From positions 124,001 through 188,000 of the forward strand of contig JAEUSM010000012.1 of the NCBI GenBank assembly GCA_016788785.1: a stretch of 64,000 nucleotides of DNA, given 5' to 3'. This document shows, piece by piece, positions 37,433-49,143 of this stretch. The translations under genes were made by a program, and so were the position numbers. The first letter of the stretch is position 1. Every line of letters begins with the position of its first letter. The notes beneath the pieces were generated by a model that worked only from the letters and a program-made list of their open reading frames with translations, had not been told where the DNA came from and did not search any database. The stretch comes from Candidatus Kapaibacterium sp. (GTDB lineage Bacteria > Bacteroidota > Ignavibacteria > Kapaibacteriales > JAEUSM01).

Positions 37433-38758
37433 TTAGTTGACTTTCTTAATGTTCAGTTTTTTAACTATAAATTTTCCAATTTGGTGTCCAACTTTCTGAC
37501 CTTCTTCACAGCCGTGGGTAAGATGAATTCCACCGTACATTCTACTCATTGAAACTTCTTCAGCTGCATCCATAAATGATTTGAAACTTCTAGATGGTAA
37601 ACCAAATGGCATTTCAGAGGTATCTGTAAATGGAATTGATCCAAAAAGAGCTGTTAAAACTTCAGCATTTGATGAAGAGATGGTGCTATGTGCTGAAGTA
37701 TGTTCAGGGAATGATGGAGTTTCTAATACACCTTCCCATTTTGGATCGATATATTTTTTAATGTAAGAAATTGGACGAATGGTGTTCGAACGGTACTTCT
37801 CAGCCCAGCAAGAAAGAAACCCATCAAATTGTGAGCAACTCACAGCACAATATGCCAAAGATGAGGAAAGAAAGTCAATATCTTGTTCTTTAGCTACAAT
37901 TCTTGTTATTGCAATCCAATGTCCACCAGGATTCATTTGGCGTTGATTGTACATACGGTGTCCATCCCATTTGTTTGAGACAGGTAAACAATTCCAATAC
38001 CAAGCAATGAGTTTCTTTTCTGCATCAACAGTTTTAGAAATGTCATATACTTCCATCATTTGCTTATAAAATTCAGAATTTTTATCGGTGCTAAAAGGAA
38101 TTGGTGGTGCAGGTTTGAATGAGGTAGGTTCTTTGATAACTAATGTTCTCATTGTTGAAAGATACGGTAACACTGGTTCCATAAAATTAGGAGGTGTTGG
38201 TTCCCAATTACCTGGTCCTTTAGGCCATTCAAAGTCCTTTTTTGCCAACATTTCTACATAATTATCTTTTCTCGCCCATTGGAGAATATGTTTTCCAACA
38301 GCAATTCCATACGATTTTGATAATTCAATATCAGAACCATCTTTCAAAGATTCCACATATTCATGTTGAGCTTTTAATAAGCTGTCACAGGATGTTGTTC
38401 TATACATTAATGCTTTGGCAACTGTATGAAATGCGTAGGAAGAAGCTAATTGAAAATGGTATTTCCCATTTTTTTGAGGTTTTGGAATTCCACTTAACCC
38501 ATTCAATTTTTTTTCGAAACTTTGAAATTTTGAAGGATTCAAATGTCTTCCTGCTTCAAAAGCAGCAATATTGGTATAAGCATGGTTTCTTGCAGCAACT
38601 GGAGGTAAAAAACCGTCATCGATATTAATTTCAATAACAATTTCATTCCAATCATGAATAAATCGAGGATTTAGATTTCCTTGATGTTTAGAATCTAATG
38701 AGAAGAGTGAAACCGATGAAATAAAGAATACAAAACAGAACAAGAGTAATTGAGTCAT
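37433..38758 (-). CDS. Exported vanadium-dependent haloperoxidase-like protein (PAP2 superfamily)
   Basis: 441 residues from the ATG at 38758, with a signal peptide (about 1-20). The vanadate/phosphate-binding residues fit the haloperoxidase pattern: Lys321-x6-Arg328 (EKYRSNTIRP), the FPEHTSAHS motif (Ser355, His357), and Arg406-x5-His412 (SRMYGGIH). The glycine of the usual SGH motif is Ala356. Vanadium haloperoxidases use hydrogen peroxide to oxidise halides; related PAP2 proteins are phosphatases, so either chemistry is possible. Its start overlaps the stop of the FG-GAP gene by one base (TAATG), meaning tight translational coupling. Last gene of the operon. Confidence 0.82.
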   Translation of the reverse strand: MTQLLLFCFVFFISSVSLFSLDSKHQGNLNPRFIHDWNEIVIEINIDDGFLPPVAARNHAYTNIAAFEAGRHLNPSKFQSFEKKLNGLSGIPKPQKNGKYHFQLASSYAFHTVAKALMYRTTSCDSLLKAQHEYVESLKDGSDIELSKSYGIAVGKHILQWARKDNYVEMLAKKDFEWPKGPGNWEPTPPNFMEPVLPYLSTMRTLVIKEPTSFKPAPPIPFSTDKNSEFYKQMMEVYDISKTVDAEKKLIAWYWNCLPVSNKWDGHRMYNQRQMNPGGHWIAITRIVAKEQDIDFLSSSLAYCAVSCSQFDGFLSCWAEKYRSNTIRPISYIKKYIDPKWEGVLETPSFPEHTSAHSTISSSNAEVLTALFGSIPFTDTSEMPFGLPSRSFKSFMDAAEEVSMSRMYGGIHLTHGCEEGQKVGHQIGKFIVKKLNIKKVN

Positions 38759-41700
38759 TATTTTGTTGTAATAGTTTGAAGTAATTTCGAACCAGAAAAC
38801 AAATCTATAGAAATACAATCTGCAGTAGAAAGGATAAATGGTGCTTGTTGGGATAAAAAGCCATTTCCAATGTAAAATTCGTGTATTCTCTTTTTGCCAT
38901 TCTTGAAGGTGAGAACAGCTTTAGTTGCTTTAAGATTCGACGCAATAGTATTAATTTTAGACGAAGTATTTTGTAAATTCTTTTCAATTATTTGTAAATG
39001 ATTAGAATTGTTTCCAATTATTCCGACTAAAGAATTTGTTGATTTGGAGTGTACCATAGACATAGCACGAACATTTCCAGCCAGATTTACACCTGATTCG
39101 TTTGGTTCCTGAGGAATAAACCCACCTTTTTTGTCATTGAGAAGTAAGGAACCCAGCCCAGCATGATAATGAACCATATCAGGTGCAGCGCCACTAAAAT
39201 TTCCTGCAACTATGATATCAACATATCCATCTTCATTAAAATCTTCGGTTAAAATTCCATAAATTGGAGAAATTTGAGCAATTTCCGGTAAAGCTTCTTT
39301 CGTAAAAGTACCATTACCATTATTTCTTAAAATAATTGATTCTAATGTCGTTACTTTTAACTGATAGGAGGAAGCTAACTGTTCAGGTGTAAAAATTTGC
39401 TCTATTGTTTCGTTCGCAAATTTATGAAAGGTCGTATAACGAGCATTATACGATGGTATTTGGTTTGTAAACTGTTGTTTTCCAACTATTGGATAACGTT
39501 TACCTTTTTGGTAATATGTTAGAATGATATCTAAACTTGTATTATTGTCGAAATCTTTTGTAAAACATTCCATAGGTTCAGTAACTGATGCTTTATACCA
39601 AGTATTTAGCCCCATATTTCCAACGACATAATCTATATCACCATCATTGTCTAAATCTGTACCAGTAATTGAATTCCACCAACCAAATAAGTTATCTGAA
39701 CCTGTTTGTTTTGTTGTTTCTGTTAAAGTTTTTCCATTATTTTTAAAGAATCGAATAGTAGTCCATTCACCAGTTAAAACTAAATCAGAAATTCCATCAT
39801 TATCATAATCTGTCCAAAGTGCAGAGGTAACCATTCCAGCAGAAGATAAGGCTGGACACACTTTCGCTGTAACATCTTTAAAAACACCTTTGGTATTTTC
39901 TAAAATGTAACTTTTGGGAGCAAATGGATATTGACCAGGTATCAATCTACCACCAACAAATAAATCCAAATCGCCATCTGAATCGTAATCACAAGCAACA
40001 ACAGTTGAAGTTGATGTGAGATTTTTAGGTAAGTTTTTCGATTTTGTAAATTGACCTTTGCCATTATTTATGTACAGCCTGTCTTGAAAATACTCATCAT
40101 CAATATTGGTTTCATTTCCACCACTTGCTACATACAAATCCAGGTCACCATCATTATCTGAATCAAAGAAAATTGCTCCTTGATCTTCTGCATCTTTATC
40201 AATATCAAATACCTGTTGTGAAGATAGTGTGAAATTACCATTAGAAGCTTGTAGGTGCAATTCACCACTTTTATATTTTGGTCCAGCAATAAATACATCA
40301 TCAAATCCATCACCATTCACATCTCCAACTGCTACAGAAGGACCATTGATGGAAAGTCTGTTTGGTAATAGTCTTTCACGTTTAAAATCATCAAAGAAAT
40401 TTTCTTTATGAGTATATTTCAAAACTCCAGATGGTAGTTCACGAATTATTGGTGCAGGATTTTGTCTGTATTTTGGAGTAGGTAATAATGCATTAACTTC
40501 TGAGACTGACATTATTTGATTTGCTGGGATATTTCGAAAAACTTCTCGTTTATGTCCTATCCAATCAACATACATTGAATCAACAACTTTATCGGAACCT
40601 AAACCAAAATGCATTATATTTTCTGAACAAGAAATATAACCTCTGTTTTGATAATGTTCTTGCATTTGTTGTTGAGCATTGTGAAAAATAGTAACTTTAG
40701 TTCCAACACCTAATTTGTTTTGAATATTACCCTCAAACTTTAATCGAAGAAAATTTGAATTTTTATTCTGTTCAACAGTCATGTTTTTGTAAACTAAAGG
40801 AAAAGAATCTATAACCATCACTATCAAATCTAAATCCCCATCCAAATCCAAGTCGCCGACAGCAGCTCCATTGGAGTTAACTTTATGAATTAGTCCCCAA
40901 TCTTCAATTCTGTTTTGGAACCGTAAACCTCCCATGTTTTCGAAGACATAGTTTTGCATTAAAACTACAGGGAGTTTTTCATGGAGATTGTAATACTGCT
41001 CTCCTTGTTTAATAAATCTATTGACATCTAAGTCATTAACATCTCTTTTATAACCATTAACAATAATTAAATCTTTTTTTGCATCATTATTAAAATCTGT
41101 AAAAAACGAAGCCCAACTCCAATCAGTAGCTGCTACACCTGCGATGAAGCAAACGTCTGAAAATTTACCATTGCCACGATTAAGATTAAGGCAGTTTCTC
41201 ATTATTTGTGTCGAATCGAAATAAGGTCCATATTGAGAGAGTGAGGTGATTTGCGTTAAACGTCGTTGATGAGAATCCATCAACATATCTACGCTGATAA
41301 TATCTGGTAATAAATCATTATTAAAATCAGAAATATCCGAACCCATTCCCAATAATGCAGAGTTACGTAACATCGATTTTTCACGTCGAGAAAATGTTCC
41401 GTTTCTATTGTTAATATATATAAGATCTGGCTCTTCGAAATCATTTGCAACAAAAATATCAGGATAACCATCCATATTCAAATCGCCAACAGATGCACTA
41501 AGTGAATACCCTTTATCATCAATTCCAATTGACTTTGAAACTTCAGTAAACCTTCCACCTCCGTCATTTCTATAGAATTTATCAGGATTACCAGGATTTA
41601 TGTAAGCCGAAATTCTAGTTGTTCCGTTAACAACTAAATAGATATCCAAATCACCATCTAAATCATAATCTAAAAGAGCAATTTGCATACTTAAACCTTC

Positions 41701-42183
41701 ACCGGCTAAACCAAATTGTTCTGCAACTTCTTTGAAAGTGCCATCTCCATTATTTAGGTAAAGTTGATTTTTACCAGCAATAGTACAAAAATACAAATCC
41801 AAATCACTATCATTATCTATATCAAACATAGAAACACCCATAAATAGTAAGGTGTCATTTTGAATCAACCCTGCTTTTGTTGTAATATCTTCAAATTGAA
41901 AATTTCCGTTGTTTTTGTAAATTTTATTGGGTTGGAAAATATTTGCTAAAACTACATCAGGAAGTCCATCGTTATCGATATCTCCGATAGCAACTCCACC
42001 ACCCATATAAATTTGCATAATGTAGCCGTAGTTGAATCTCTGGTTTTCAATAACATCATTACGAACTGTTATACCAGATTTCTCAGGTGGAATTGTTTGG
42101 AATAGAGGTTGAGAAAAGGATATTGATGTAGAAATGAGTACTACTGTAATGAATGGTAGAATTTTAGTAAGTAGATTAATCAT
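38758..42183 (-). CDS. Giant exported FG-GAP/VCBS repeat protein with ASPIC/UnbV domain
   Basis: 1141 residues from ATG 42183, with a signal peptide (about 1-25). Many FG-GAP-type repeats carry calcium-binding D-x-D-x-DG loops (DIDNDGLPDVVLAN, DLDLDGDLDLI, DYDSDGDLDLFVGG), suggesting two beta-propellers. Between them (about 480-570) is an ASPIC/UnbV domain (LRLKFEGNIQNKLGVGTKVTIF; MHFGLG). It should be secreted or surface-bound and calcium-stabilised. Genes of this type often accompany TonB receptors and haloperoxidase-like genes in Bacteroidota, as here. It is probably a binding partner of the other exported proteins of the operon. Confidence 0.88.
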   Translation of the reverse strand: MINLLTKILPFITVVLISTSISFSQPLFQTIPPEKSGITVRNDVIENQRFNYGYIMQIYMGGGVAIGDIDNDGLPDVVLANIFQPNKIYKNNGNFQFEDITTKAGLIQNDTLLFMGVSMFDIDNDSDLDLYFCTIAGKNQLYLNNGDGTFKEVAEQFGLAGEGLSMQIALLDYDLDGDLDIYLVVNGTTRISAYINPGNPDKFYRNDGGGRFTEVSKSIGIDDKGYSLSASVGDLNMDGYPDIFVANDFEEPDLIYINNRNGTFSRREKSMLRNSALLGMGSDISDFNNDLLPDIISVDMLMDSHQRRLTQITSLSQYGPYFDSTQIMRNCLNLNRGNGKFSDVCFIAGVAATDWSWASFFTDFNNDAKKDLIIVNGYKRDVNDLDVNRFIKQGEQYYNLHEKLPVVLMQNYVFENMGGLRFQNRIEDWGLIHKVNSNGAAVGDLDLDGDLDLIVMVIDSFPLVYKNMTVEQNKNSNFLRLKFEGNIQNKLGVGTKVTIFHNAQQQMQEHYQNRGYISCSENIMHFGLGSDKVVDSMYVDWIGHKREVFRNIPANQIMSVSEVNALLPTPKYRQNPAPIIRELPSGVLKYTHKENFFDDFKRERLLPNRLSINGPSVAVGDVNGDGFDDVFIAGPKYKSGELHLQASNGNFTLSSQQVFDIDKDAEDQGAIFFDSDNDGDLDLYVASGGNETNIDDEYFQDRLYINNGKGQFTKSKNLPKNLTSTSTVVACDYDSDGDLDLFVGGRLIPGQYPFAPKSYILENTKGVFKDVTAKVCPALSSAGMVTSALWTDYDNDGISDLVLTGEWTTIRFFKNNGKTLTETTKQTGSDNLFGWWNSITGTDLDNDGDIDYVVGNMGLNTWYKASVTEPMECFTKDFDNNTSLDIILTYYQKGKRYPIVGKQQFTNQIPSYNARYTTFHKFANETIEQIFTPEQLASSYQLKVTTLESIILRNNGNGTFTKEALPEIAQISPIYGILTEDFNEDGYVDIIVAGNFSGAAPDMVHYHAGLGSLLLNDKKGGFIPQEPNESGVNLAGNVRAMSMVHSKSTNSLVGIIGNNSNHLQIIEKNLQNTSSKINTIASNLKATKAVLTFKNGKKRIHEFYIGNGFLSQQAPFILSTADCISIDLFSGSKLLQTITTK

Positions 42184-42196
42184 AAGGGTAAAGTAA

Positions 42197-42231
42197 AAAG
42201 TGGTATATTCCTTTTGCAAATATACCACTTT
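42197..42231 (-). promoter_or_regulatory. Perfect 13-bp intercistronic hairpin
   Basis: AAAGTGGTATATT and AATATACCACTTT pair perfectly around a 9-base loop, in the gap between the TonB receptor and the FG-GAP gene, 13 bases before the FG-GAP ATG. On the minus strand it is followed by only TTACTTT, so it is more likely an mRNA-processing or stabilising hairpin, partial attenuator or operator than a full terminator. Confidence 0.6.
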
Positions 42232-42270: not shown

Positions 42271-44796
42271 TTAAATCGTATAACTTAAAGAGACATTTGC
42301 CAATCGAGGAACTAATGTTCCACCTAAAATTTGAAAGTGTTTTACATCTAATAAATTGTAAACGTTGAAACCTGCTTTTAGATTGTCAGAAAATTGGTAT
42401 CCTCCATTCAGGTTAACAATACCATACGAAGGCACTTCTCCTCTAAAATCACCCGCTAACCATGTAAACGAATCAACAAATCTGTATTGGATCGTTATAT
42501 CAAACAATCTTGGTTCTGAATAAGTTGCAGACAAATTTACTCTATTTGGAGAAGTATTTGCTGAAATAATATCAAAACCTGAAATCAAAAATGGATTTGT
42601 TGTTTTAGCATCTAACAAATTGAAATCAAAATAGGAATAATTGGCTTGTAATTCCAAATTTTTGGTTGGAAAATAGGAAATTCCCATATCAACTCCAAAA
42701 TTTTCAATCAACCCTATATTTGCATTAGATATTACAAATGCTGGATTTCCATCAACTGTAGATAAACGAGATTTATCAAAATTCGTTGGTAATGCACTAT
42801 AAACAATTGAATCGATTTGTGCTGCATATTGCGCTAATTCTGGAGTTAATGTTGATGCTGAAGACCAACTTTTATATTGATCATTTGCACCAGGTAAGAA
42901 ACCTGAGATAAAGTTAGACAATCTTGCATAATAACCCTCAATATTTACACTTAGGTTATTTGTTATTATACCACGATACCCAAGTTCAAAAGAGTTGTTA
43001 GATTCTACTGTTAAATTTGTATTACCTAATCCTAATGATTGAGGTTGTATTCCAGATATTCCTTGTTGAGTAGGAGAGAATAAACCTAAATTTACATTTT
43101 GAGTTAAACCAGTTTGATTTGTAAGAAATTGATTCACTTGGTCTTGAACTGGACGGAAGTTAATTGGACCCATTGCACCTAAAGCAGGTCTAAATCCATA
43201 CCGTCTGTATAACTCAGAAAAATTTGGTCTTTGGAATGCTCTACCGCCTGTTAAACGAAATGTATGTTCAGCAGTTGGAGTATAGATAACTGAGACTCTT
43301 GGAGAGAATTGATTTGGGTTGATAGATGCTCTATCTACTCGTGCAGATCCAACAATTCTCAAATCATCTGTAGCTTTAAAATCAAGTTGTGCATAGGCAC
43401 CTGCAAAATTTGCTTCAATCGAATCAGGTCTAAATACTGTTCCTCTTGAATCCATAAACATATATTGACCTTGAAGACCAGCAGTTAATGACAGATTATC
43501 AGTTAATGTCTCATTATACTGTAAATCTACATTGATATCATAAGCGTGGTCTAAAATAATAGTCCCTGGAGGAGCTGCCAAAATTCGCATTGTATCAAGA
43601 GTATTTCTGTCATTATAGGTAGCTTGACCTTGAAATTTATCGGATACGAACTTTAATCTACCGAATTTTTTACTTGTTTTTGGAACGTGAATTCTACCAG
43701 CCCCAGCCATCATAAATTCGTTACCAAATTGAGTATATCCAAATTCAGATTCTAAATGAGAAGTAGAATTCAATTGATAATCTAAACGAGCAGCACCATA
43801 ATATGAGAATGAATTTCTTTGTTCATCAGTAATTCCATTTTGTTCGATTGCGTTTGGCCATAACCATTCATAACCATCGCTAACAATTCTTGCACTGTCA
43901 GTAGCACGAAGTGCAGGATTTGTAGCTTTTCTGTCTCTGTTTAAGTTACGGCTACCCATAGTTCCTACGTTTACTCGGTAGGAAAAGTCATCAATAACAC
44001 CTGCGTGACGAATATCTGCACGATAGGTATTGTAATCACCACCCAATAAAGAAACCTTCGTTCCAACAACATCTTTTGGTGCATACGTACGTAGATTTAA
44101 TACCCCGTTAAACGCATTTGGACCGAATAATGCAGCAGAAGGACCACGAATTAACTCGATATTTTGGAAATCTTCCATTGGGAAAGTCAACGAGTTCCAT
44201 TCAGGAGCACCAATCTGTTGTAATGCAACATCACGTCCGTCAACGAGGATTAGTAAACGACGATTAGTAGAATTATTAAAACCACGTGTATTTACCTGAA
44301 AGTCAGCATTACCGTTTCTTGTAACATCAACACCCAATTGACCTTCTAAGGCATTCCCAACTTGATTGGAACGAGCCGCTTTTTGAATTTCGACCTGAGA
44401 AAGTGCTGTTACAGCAGCAGGAGTGTTTTTAGCCAACTCGGCTCTTTTTGAAGCTCCATAAACGATGACATCTTCTGTTAATCTTGATTCCATTTCTTCT
44501 AAGTCAATAGTAAGATTCAGATTCTGGCCATCAGTCACGGTTACATTCGAAAATTCTCTCTTTTTATACCCTAAATACGTAACTAAAAGATTATAAGAAC
44601 CTGCTTTCAAATTTGGAATTGAGAACTCTCCATTCTTTTTTGAAATAGTTCCCTTGTTGGAATTGGTAATACTAATTCGAACACCTTCCAATGGAGTGTT
44701 TGAAGTTTTGTCCTTTATTATTCCTTTTATTGCACTTTGAGAATATAAAGAAGTTGCAATAAAGAAACTAAAAAGTAGTATGAATATAGATTTCAT
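42271..44796 (-). CDS. TonB-dependent receptor with N-terminal carboxypeptidase-like domain
   Basis: 841 residues. Signal peptide (about 1-19), then a CarboxypepD_reg-like domain (about 22-105; IKGIIKDKTSNTPLEGVRISI), a plug (about 110-235; VNTRGFNNSTNRRLLILVDGRDVALQ and IELIRGPSAALFGPNAFNGVLNLRT) and a barrel ending in VSLSYTI. The N-terminal domain and sequence style are typical of large-substrate importers, but there is no SusD partner and it is not a SusC type by length. It is the only outer-membrane importer of this operon. Substrate unknown. Confidence 0.92.
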   Translation of the reverse strand: MKSIFILLFSFFIATSLYSQSAIKGIIKDKTSNTPLEGVRISITNSNKGTISKKNGEFSIPNLKAGSYNLLVTYLGYKKREFSNVTVTDGQNLNLTIDLEEMESRLTEDVIVYGASKRAELAKNTPAAVTALSQVEIQKAARSNQVGNALEGQLGVDVTRNGNADFQVNTRGFNNSTNRRLLILVDGRDVALQQIGAPEWNSLTFPMEDFQNIELIRGPSAALFGPNAFNGVLNLRTYAPKDVVGTKVSLLGGDYNTYRADIRHAGVIDDFSYRVNVGTMGSRNLNRDRKATNPALRATDSARIVSDGYEWLWPNAIEQNGITDEQRNSFSYYGAARLDYQLNSTSHLESEFGYTQFGNEFMMAGAGRIHVPKTSKKFGRLKFVSDKFQGQATYNDRNTLDTMRILAAPPGTIILDHAYDINVDLQYNETLTDNLSLTAGLQGQYMFMDSRGTVFRPDSIEANFAGAYAQLDFKATDDLRIVGSARVDRASINPNQFSPRVSVIYTPTAEHTFRLTGGRAFQRPNFSELYRRYGFRPALGAMGPINFRPVQDQVNQFLTNQTGLTQNVNLGLFSPTQQGISGIQPQSLGLGNTNLTVESNNSFELGYRGIITNNLSVNIEGYYARLSNFISGFLPGANDQYKSWSSASTLTPELAQYAAQIDSIVYSALPTNFDKSRLSTVDGNPAFVISNANIGLIENFGVDMGISYFPTKNLELQANYSYFDFNLLDAKTTNPFLISGFDIISANTSPNRVNLSATYSEPRLFDITIQYRFVDSFTWLAGDFRGEVPSYGIVNLNGGYQFSDNLKAGFNVYNLLDVKHFQILGGTLVPRLANVSLSYTI

Positions 44797-47168: not shown

Positions 47169-48362
47169 TTAAATTAATTGAGTATCCTTCGTATCCTTAA
47201 CGAAGAACATTAAAAATAAGCCGACAATGAATAATACTGAAAAAGCGAGTATAGAGTTCCCATATCCGCCAAAAAAAGGTACAAGTACACCAACAAAGAA
47301 AACACAGACACCCGTAATTATTCTTCCTAAATTAAAAGAAAGTCCTGTTGCACCTGCACGAATTTTCGTTGGAAACATCTCAGGAATAAAACTTGACAAG
47401 GTACCCTGACCTAATCCAATACAAATTCCCATTCCACCTGTAGCGATGATTGATGCAAGTGTATAATTTTTAATAAAATAGAATACGAGTATTGACAAAA
47501 CACTCAATCCGATAAATGCAAATTGAATAACGGGTTTTCTTCCGACTATATTCGCAAGAAAACCTGAAGAAAATGCTCCAACTATCCCACCTAAAGCCAA
47601 ACACATCAATATTATTCCTCTTGTTTTATTCGCTTCTGCCAAAGGTACTAATTCTTCTGCCCATGTCGGCATCCAAGAAAATAATGCCCATAATCCAATC
47701 AACATAGCACCAAAAATCAGCGATGCCAATACTAACGTTTTTGAAAATAGTGGTTCACTTGATGTTGAAAAAGAAATTGTTATATTCCGATTAGTAAATA
47801 GTTCTGAATTTTTTAGGAATATAAATAGCAGAGGAAGAAGTACTCCTACTAAAGCATTGATGTAGAATAGTTGTTTCCAATCTGGATTTGAAGCGGAAAA
47901 TATTCCAGTTACCATAATCCCTACAGCAAAAGAATTTGCTAATATGCCAATGGAAATTGCTCTTTTTTCAGGTGATATAATCTCTGCAATATGTGTAGTA
48001 GTTACAACCATTAATCCTCCTACCATAGCTCCTGAGAGAAATCGAAAGAGAGCAAAAATATGCCAAGAATCTGTAGTATTGGAAGCAATGCACAAAATTG
48101 ACAATATAGTTGTGAGGATTAAGATTGTTTGTTTACGACCAATTTTATCTGCAAATAAGCCAGATAAAACACCCCCAATTGACCATCCAATTAAGACAAT
48201 ACCATTGAAAATACTTGCAACAAATAGTCGAACCGATTCAGGTTCATTCAAAAGAAATACATCCAAAATTTGGCTCAAATTTGCTGAGACAAGTGATGAA
48301 TTTATGCCACCAAATAGACAAATAATCCAACAAAGGATAAACTGGAGAATAGTTTTATTCAT
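47169..48362 (-). CDS. Major facilitator superfamily transporter
   Basis: 397 residues, 12 predicted membrane helices. MFS signatures are present: GGVLSGLFADKIGRKQTI (loop 2-3, about 64-81) and the matching loop of the second half, SGFLANIVGRKPVI. The pattern is that of the sugar/aromatic-acid-type (MHS or AAHS-like) symporters. It is the first gene of the operon, 128 bases after the regulator gene, with an FNR-type palindrome and a TATTTTTG element upstream. Direction and substrate unknown. Confidence 0.9.
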   Translation of the reverse strand: MNKTILQFILCWIICLFGGINSSLVSANLSQILDVFLLNEPESVRLFVASIFNGIVLIGWSIGGVLSGLFADKIGRKQTILILTTILSILCIASNTTDSWHIFALFRFLSGAMVGGLMVVTTTHIAEIISPEKRAISIGILANSFAVGIMVTGIFSASNPDWKQLFYINALVGVLLPLLFIFLKNSELFTNRNITISFSTSSEPLFSKTLVLASLIFGAMLIGLWALFSWMPTWAEELVPLAEANKTRGIILMCLALGGIVGAFSSGFLANIVGRKPVIQFAFIGLSVLSILVFYFIKNYTLASIIATGGMGICIGLGQGTLSSFIPEMFPTKIRAGATGLSFNLGRIITGVCVFFVGVLVPFFGGYGNSILAFSVLFIVGLFLMFFVKDTKDTQLI

Positions 48363-48382
48363 AATTTCCTTGAAAATTTATA

Positions 48383-48390
48383 CAAAAATA
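48383..48390 (-). promoter_or_regulatory. -7 promoter element of the AhpD/TonB/haloperoxidase operon
   Basis: Minus strand CGTATTTTTG matches TAnnTTTG; predicted transcription start near 48379, 17 bases before the MFS ATG. There is no TTTG at the -33 position, where the FNR-type palindrome sits instead, as expected for an activator-dependent promoter. Confidence 0.55.
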
Positions 48391-48411
48391 CGAAACACAG
48401 GTAGGTGAAAA

Positions 48412-48429
48412 TCTTGATTTGAATCAAGA
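48412..48429. promoter_or_regulatory. FNR-type operator TTGATTTGAATCAA
   Basis: TCTTGATT-TG-AATCAAGA is a perfect 8+2+8 palindrome whose core TTGAT-N4-ATCAA (48414-48427) equals the classical FNR box. Its centre (48420.5) is about 41.5 bases upstream of the predicted start, the class II activator position. The adjacent gene encodes a Crp/Fnr-family protein. Confidence 0.65.
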
Positions 48430-48489
48430 AAATTAAGAAAATTTCAAGAAAATCGTGAAAAAATACGAAAAATTTAGAACTTTTTAAGA

Positions 48490-49143
48490 TTATAACATCT
48501 TTTTGCGGAACCGTGAAAAGGTTTCGGGTGAAATTCCAAGGTAGGAAGCTATCTGATAATGTTTTGCACGTTCCAAAATATCAGGTTGATGTTCTAACAA
48601 ATAACTGTATTGTTCTTCGATAGATTTTGTTCTGGTGTAAAGATCTTTTTTTTCACTGTAGGAAAATCGTTGCTCAGCAGCAGCTCTACTAATATCTTGC
48701 CAACAGTTGTGTGAACAAAACAATTCAACTGATTTATGAGATGGGATATATAATATTTCAGATTTTTCAATTGCAACGATGTTATATAATGCAGGAAGTT
48801 TCATTATTGGATTCATTGTCGCAAAAATCGGAGTTAGTTCTGAGTAAAAATCTTTTATAAAATGTTGCTCTTCATTTTCATAATAACAAAGGAAGAATCC
48901 TTTGGCAATAAAAAATTGATCACCTAGCAATTGTCCTTCATGTTGAATGTGTTCATTCTTGTCAACATGTTTATACTCAAGAATTGAAAGAAAAGAAGAC
49001 CATTCTTCGTCAGGTAAATTGGTGATAGAAGAAAAATAGGTGAAAATCGATTGTAAAGTCGTATCAAAGGAAAAATATGTTGTTGTATCGTTTTCACTAA
49101 TAAAAACATCATCTTTCACGGAGCTAATCGAATTATTTGCCAT
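48490..49143 (-). CDS. Crp/Fnr-family transcription regulator
   Basis: 217 residues. An N-terminal cyclic-nucleotide-binding-like jelly roll (about 40-150) and a helical C-terminus with a winged helix ending at the recognition helix SPETFSRFRKKML. Glu207, Ser210 and Arg211 match the E-x2-SR pattern by which FNR reads TTGAT. It has no N-terminal cysteine cluster, so it is not an oxygen-sensing iron-sulfur FNR; three cysteines (FLCYY, LFCSHNC) could sense redox, but this is speculative. The ATG at 49143 overlaps pdxH by 28 bases; a GTG at 49119 would overlap by the classic four bases (GTGA). It is probably the regulator of the operon downstream. Confidence 0.85.
   Translation of the reverse strand: MANNSISSVKDDVFISENDTTTYFSFDTTLQSIFTYFSSITNLPDEEWSSFLSILEYKHVDKNEHIQHEGQLLGDQFFIAKGFFLCYYENEEQHFIKDFYSELTPIFATMNPIMKLPALYNIVAIEKSEILYIPSHKSVELFCSHNCWQDISRAAAEQRFSYSEKKDLYTRTKSIEEQYSYLLEHQPDILERAKHYQIASYLGISPETFSRFRKKML

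Follow-up and report, generated by a model that had tools for sequence, protein, structure and literature searches.

The window, the whole 64,000-nucleotide stretch analysed here, carries on its minus strand a gene for a Crp/Fnr-superfamily regulator of 217 amino acids (48490-49143), followed after a gap of 127 bp by a co-directional gene for an MFS transporter (47169-48362) that partly resembles the aromatic acid/H+ symporter group. The transporter gene is the first of the target operon. Behind it, on the same strand and with short distances between them, lie four genes for carboxymuconolactone-decarboxylase/AhpD-like proteins, all matching the peroxidase-related TIGR01926 (46617-47159, 46033-46590, 45457-46008 and 44883-45434), and a gene for a TonB-dependent receptor with a carboxypeptidase-regulatory-like N-terminal domain (42271-44796), which is likely part of the same operon. 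A minus-strand gene for an FG-GAP/ASPIC-UnbV protein (38758-42228) is possibly the last operon gene, though its co-transcription is uncertain because it has a TAnnTTTG motif of its own upstream.

An MFS-peroxidase-TonB operon lacking the regulator is conserved within the taxonomic order of the window's genome and is widespread in Bacteroidota. At the loci of relatives that keep this operon, we found neither the regulator nor the exact combination of palindrome and promoter box described below. A sequence-only reading of this DNA had proposed, as a check, that the palindrome be sought in relatives that keep the operon; it is absent there, as is the regulator, so the site tracks the regulator and not the operon. 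In several genomes of that taxonomic order a single open frame takes in both the last AhpD-like gene and the TonB receptor, with a stretch resembling a signal peptide in its middle, a possible fusion or overlapping start (L118:9107-12214, L121:1-2395, L122:2787-5828, L123:124-3189 and L124:818-3847). In many Bacteroidia an AhpD-TonB-MFS-AhpD operon is preceded by a membrane-like protein of about 180 amino acids with a proline-rich C-terminus (PPPE, PPPDLA, HPPERA; for example L134:632-1174, L135:314-880 and L139:631-1173).

The gap between regulator and MFS gene holds two elements, both of which the sequence-only reading had placed correctly: a perfect TTGAT-N4-ATCAA palindrome, TTGATTTGAATCAA, at 48414-48427, with both half-sites reading TTGAT, and TATTTTTG on the minus strand at 48390-48383. 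The first is contained in an inverted repeat of 18 bp, longer than had been described, TCTTGATT-tg-AATCAAGA (48412-48429), whose two arms are perfect over 8 bp each and which we propose as the operator. The second is a -7 box of the Bacteroidota type (TAnnTTTG); 23 nt separate it from the 14-bp box upstream. When the 127-bp gap was shuffled, the exact box arose in 19 of 20,000 shuffles, and a box together with a correctly spaced TAnnTTTG in 14 of 20,000. The promoter has no TTTG at -33, as the earlier reading had also observed. A 12-mer around the -7 box, AAAAATACGAAA (48384-48395), is duplicated exactly 75 nt upstream (48459-48470), the upstream copy lacking the final G of TAnnTTTG.

In the mapped transcription start set of the flavobacterial F. 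psychrophilum, TAnnTTTG occupies positions -12 to -5 (PMC9723704), which places the predicted start of the MFS transcript at 48378 on the minus strand and the palindrome centre at -42.5. The centre had earlier been put at about -41.5; the class II-type position stands, but the figure is probably -42.5, and a spacing of 22 nt instead of 23 would be needed to arrive at -41.5. Given this predicted start, the N23 geometry sets the palindrome across the -33/-35 region with its centre within the range, near -41.5/-42.5, that defines a class II site.

Counts show TAnnTTTG to be a genuine promoter signal of this genome: it stands 38 times upstream of genes, where shuffles give 11.6 +/- 3.2 and the coding rate predicts 9.6, and the reversed motif, with 9, shows no enrichment. 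The full arrangement TTTG-N18-21-TAnnTTTG occurs 5 times in ordinary upstream regions against 0.5 expected, so this genome uses the Bacteroidota -7/-33 promoter. Perfect FNR boxes number 21 in the 2.97-Mb genome, and the one in the window is the only one in a promoter-type gap. We rejected a genome-wide regulon of such boxes, since 19 of the 21 fall within open reading frames and one within a CRISPR spacer. The spacer belongs to a long CRISPR array (L109, G000:C18:14800-18800; repeat GTTGTGAATAGCTTTCAATTTAGTATTTTTGTTCTTTGATTCCCAAC) and carries its box by chance.

Crp/Fnr proteins have expanded greatly in Bacteroidota, and the regulator is a member of this expansion, its nearest relatives being about 31% identical; in a search of 395 Bacteroidota genomes, that 31% was the best identity, and no close relative was found in viral contigs or genome contigs. 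Its best sequence match among solved structures is PDB 3dn7 (E=1e-10, residues 36-216 aligned), itself from this Bacteroidota expansion, and the alignment, which runs through residue 216, and the 144 homologs both give it a C-terminal helix-turn-helix with a Crp/Fnr recognition helix. The match is full-length and includes that helix, but the helix of 3dn7 reads PEYLSE and lacks Arg211. The cyclic-nucleotide-binding-type beta-roll (Pfam PF00027) is matched at E=2e-4 with 21.7 bits, under the curated threshold of 27.5, and inspection of the regulator sequence by eye gave no obvious arginine for binding the cAMP phosphate. The first cysteine is residue 86, confirming that the N-terminal cysteine cluster of FNR is missing, and none of Cys86, Cys143 and Cys147 is conserved in homologs. 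The protein is thus not FNR, and the lack of N-terminal cysteines excludes iron-sulfur sensing of the FNR type. About one third of the regulator homologs (L001-L319 set) have a cysteine at alignment column 73, and about one third at column 83. We discarded these as a candidate sensor, as both occur together in only 11 of 145 homologs and the window protein has neither.

The recognition helix, GISPETFSRFRKKM, contains Glu207, Ser210 and Arg211, and the E-x2-SR spacing that had been invoked to connect the protein with TTGAT is indeed present in the translation. As an argument it needs narrowing: in the alignment of the regulator with 144 homologs, Ser210 is missing from only one of the 145 sequences and Arg211 is present in 134 of them, so that two of the three residues are nearly constant across the family and the argument depends on Glu207.

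For a comparison across the family, we assembled 145 homologs with their flanking gaps. A first motif count, for TTG-N8-CAA, showed no enrichment over other spacings; enrichment is visible only in an unbiased palindrome count and when sites are anchored to the -7 box. The unbiased count covered all 5-mer palindromes with spacers of 0-12 in the gaps of the 145 homologs, and motifs in the FNR register ranked top: CTTGA-N6-TCAAG (3 against 0.05 expected), TTAAC-N4-GTTAA (5 against 0.05) and CTTAA-N1-TTAAG (12 against 0.05), the last lying within a longer site, TTAAC-N4-GTGAA. Measured from the palindrome centre, the T of TAnnTTTG is most often 30.5 or 29.5 nt away, a sharp peak that holds 24 of the 30 pairs within 80 nt, against 0.04 expected. 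We then scored as composite any FNR-register palindrome 22-23 nt upstream of TAnnTTTG with at least 11 of 12 fixed letters. Among the homologous regulators, 108 have a co-directional downstream gene, and composites at this spacing occur at 54 of these; other spacings give 0-7 and shuffles 0.5. The 54 are spread over 27 of 59 protein clusters (50% identity), and at this threshold about half of the homologous loci are without a composite. Among control gaps 7 of 363 match; four of these seven belong to the genome's own regulators, and without them the count is 3 of 359.

The rule was then put to a hold-out, built by searching with a different paralog, using loci not used before and with criteria locked. 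Composites at 22-23 nt appeared at 28 of 62 loci, against 0-5 at other spacings. The clusters are drawn from one expanded family, so they are not fully independent events, a concern that clustering at 50% and the hold-out reduce. A pattern scan of 148 whole genomes found 198 matches with the expected spacing, where the reversed control gave 96, a supportive, if noisy, result. Within the window's own genome, the regulator and three paralogs (L111, L112 and L113) all obey the spacing rule and the residue rule described below (4/4). In the literature searched, whose coverage leaves out most subscription journals, we found no report of such a spacing rule. Taken over some 170 homologous regulator loci, hold-out included, the comparison strongly supports two proposals of the sequence-only reading, that the palindrome is a class II site and that the regulator is paired with the site adjacent to it.

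Geometry alone is compatible with repression too. A regulator sitting across the -33 region, which the palindrome overlaps, could block RNA polymerase until an inducer frees the promoter, and with about half of the family members lacking such a site the mode of action could vary among them. However, a -33 TTTG is present in 0 of the 54 composite promoters, yet its pairing with a -7 box occurs 5 times against 0.5 expected in the ordinary upstream regions of this genome, and a constant 22-23 nt maintained over diverse sites is expected of a contact with polymerase and not of simple occlusion. We therefore regard repression as unlikely.

The sites differ among family members in a way that follows the recognition helix. 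Position 207 aligns with Glu181 of CRP and Glu209 of FNR. Among the 54 composite loci, Glu207 with Arg211 is always accompanied by RTCAA in the promoter-proximal half-site (24 of 24, from 15 clusters), Gln207 mostly by GTGAA, Val207 by GTTAA, and Glu207 with Glu or Leu at 211 by TTAA; the association between residues and bases holds at cluster level (Fisher p=2e-6). In the hold-out, Glu207/Arg211 goes with C in 14 of 14 sites and other helices in 3 of 14 (p=3e-5). All three exceptions have Lys211, whose sites read T in 6 of 9, so the rule is looser for Lys211. The window protein, with Glu207/Arg211 and a site reading ATCAA, behaves as the rule predicts. A correlation between residues and bases at CRP positions 180/181 has been published (PMC1274295).

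The residue rule bears on a second alternative, that the site is used by, or shared with, another protein of the same specificity. The paralog L112 (C12:146322) also has Glu207/Arg211, its own site is TTGATATAAGTCAA, with a similar half-site, and its box, TAATTTCG, is near-consensus; an unseen FNR/DNR protein could in principle serve as well. Three more composites of the form TTGAY-N4-RTCAA with TAnnTTTG lie in the genome with no adjacent Crp/Fnr gene. Against this, the site adjoins the regulator gene across the phylum and the genome has no regulon of perfect TTGAT boxes, and we hold this reading to be improbable, somewhat more so than repression. The three composites (L320, L321 and L322, at 1501-1544 in each; G000:C1:7405, C1:159626 and C5:100598) are possible extra targets of the window regulator or of L112.

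The last alternative would make the palindrome a weak terminator for the regulator transcript, or else a repeat that arose by chance. It could draw on the palindrome's position about 60 nt past the regulator stop codon and before a short T run, and on the appearance of some perfect 8-bp-arm repeat in 373 of 3000 shuffles. But a terminator scan found none, a centre of 2 nt suits an RNA hairpin poorly, the fold z-score reaches no more than -1.4, and this reading would leave unexplained why the spacing to -7 boxes is so exact across the phylum; we set it aside as very improbable.

The class II promoters of E. coli FNR offer the closest parallel: they share the TTGAT-N4-ATCAA box, the E-x2-SR spacing and the palindrome over the -35 region. 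At those promoters some 29.5 nt lie between the palindrome centre and the first T of the -10 box, against 29.5-30.5 nt in the window and the family. The differences are that the window regulator lacks the N-terminal cysteine cluster, that the promoter has a TAnnTTTG -7 box where E. coli has TATAAT, that the spacing in the window is 1 bp longer (centre -42.5), and that control would be local, over one operon, and not over a global regulon. The nitrogen-oxide regulators HcpR/HcpR2, DNR and NnrR are likewise Crp/Fnr proteins often encoded beside their targets, with base changes that track the residues equivalent to CRP 180/181 (PMC1274295). Compared with these, the present family has different targets, the set of residues linked to bases reaches Arg211 (by alignment the CRP 185 position), and the rule is tied to a constant distance from TAnnTTTG.

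We consider it likely that the regulator is dedicated to the MFS/peroxidase-like/TonB operon and activates it locally, in a class II-type manner. A dimer would bind the palindrome at 48412-48429, just downstream of its own gene, and upon some signal would bring RNA polymerase, loaded with the primary sigma factor of Bacteroidota, to the -7 box. The palindrome covers the place of the missing -33 element, with its centre at about -42.5, and is therefore in class II geometry; the bound dimer would replace that element. The outcome would be that the operon of MFS transporter, four AhpD-like proteins and TonB receptor is turned on, with a presumed role in chemical or oxidative stress. Site-bearing family members neighbour DoxX, YceI, SDR, NmrA, glyoxalase, cupin and PNPOx-like genes, and also metallo-beta-lactamase-like, GNAT and flavin-oxidase-like genes. 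Together with the AhpD-like genes of the window, these sampled targets point to small modules for stress or detoxification, and the operon in the window, with its MFS transporter and AhpD-like proteins, fits the picture of a stress or detoxification switch.

The comparison turns the single site in the window into a family-level rule. With slightly less confidence than for the window itself, we think it probable that across the phylum such pairs form one-regulator, one-operon switches, in which each Crp/Fnr paralog of the expansion would bind a palindrome of its own, specified by residues 207 and 211 and placed in the gap to the next gene, always 22-23 nt before TAnnTTTG, with the dimer standing in for the -33 element to recruit the primary sigma factor of Bacteroidota. 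Both this sigma factor and its promoter are unusual, and the literature searched describes only poorly how activators act on that promoter. If correct, the distance and the two-residue rule would make sites and targets predictable for many uncharacterised Crp/Fnr paralogs, and would open class II activation at TAnnTTTG promoters to direct tests in which the spacing is changed or half-sites are swapped.
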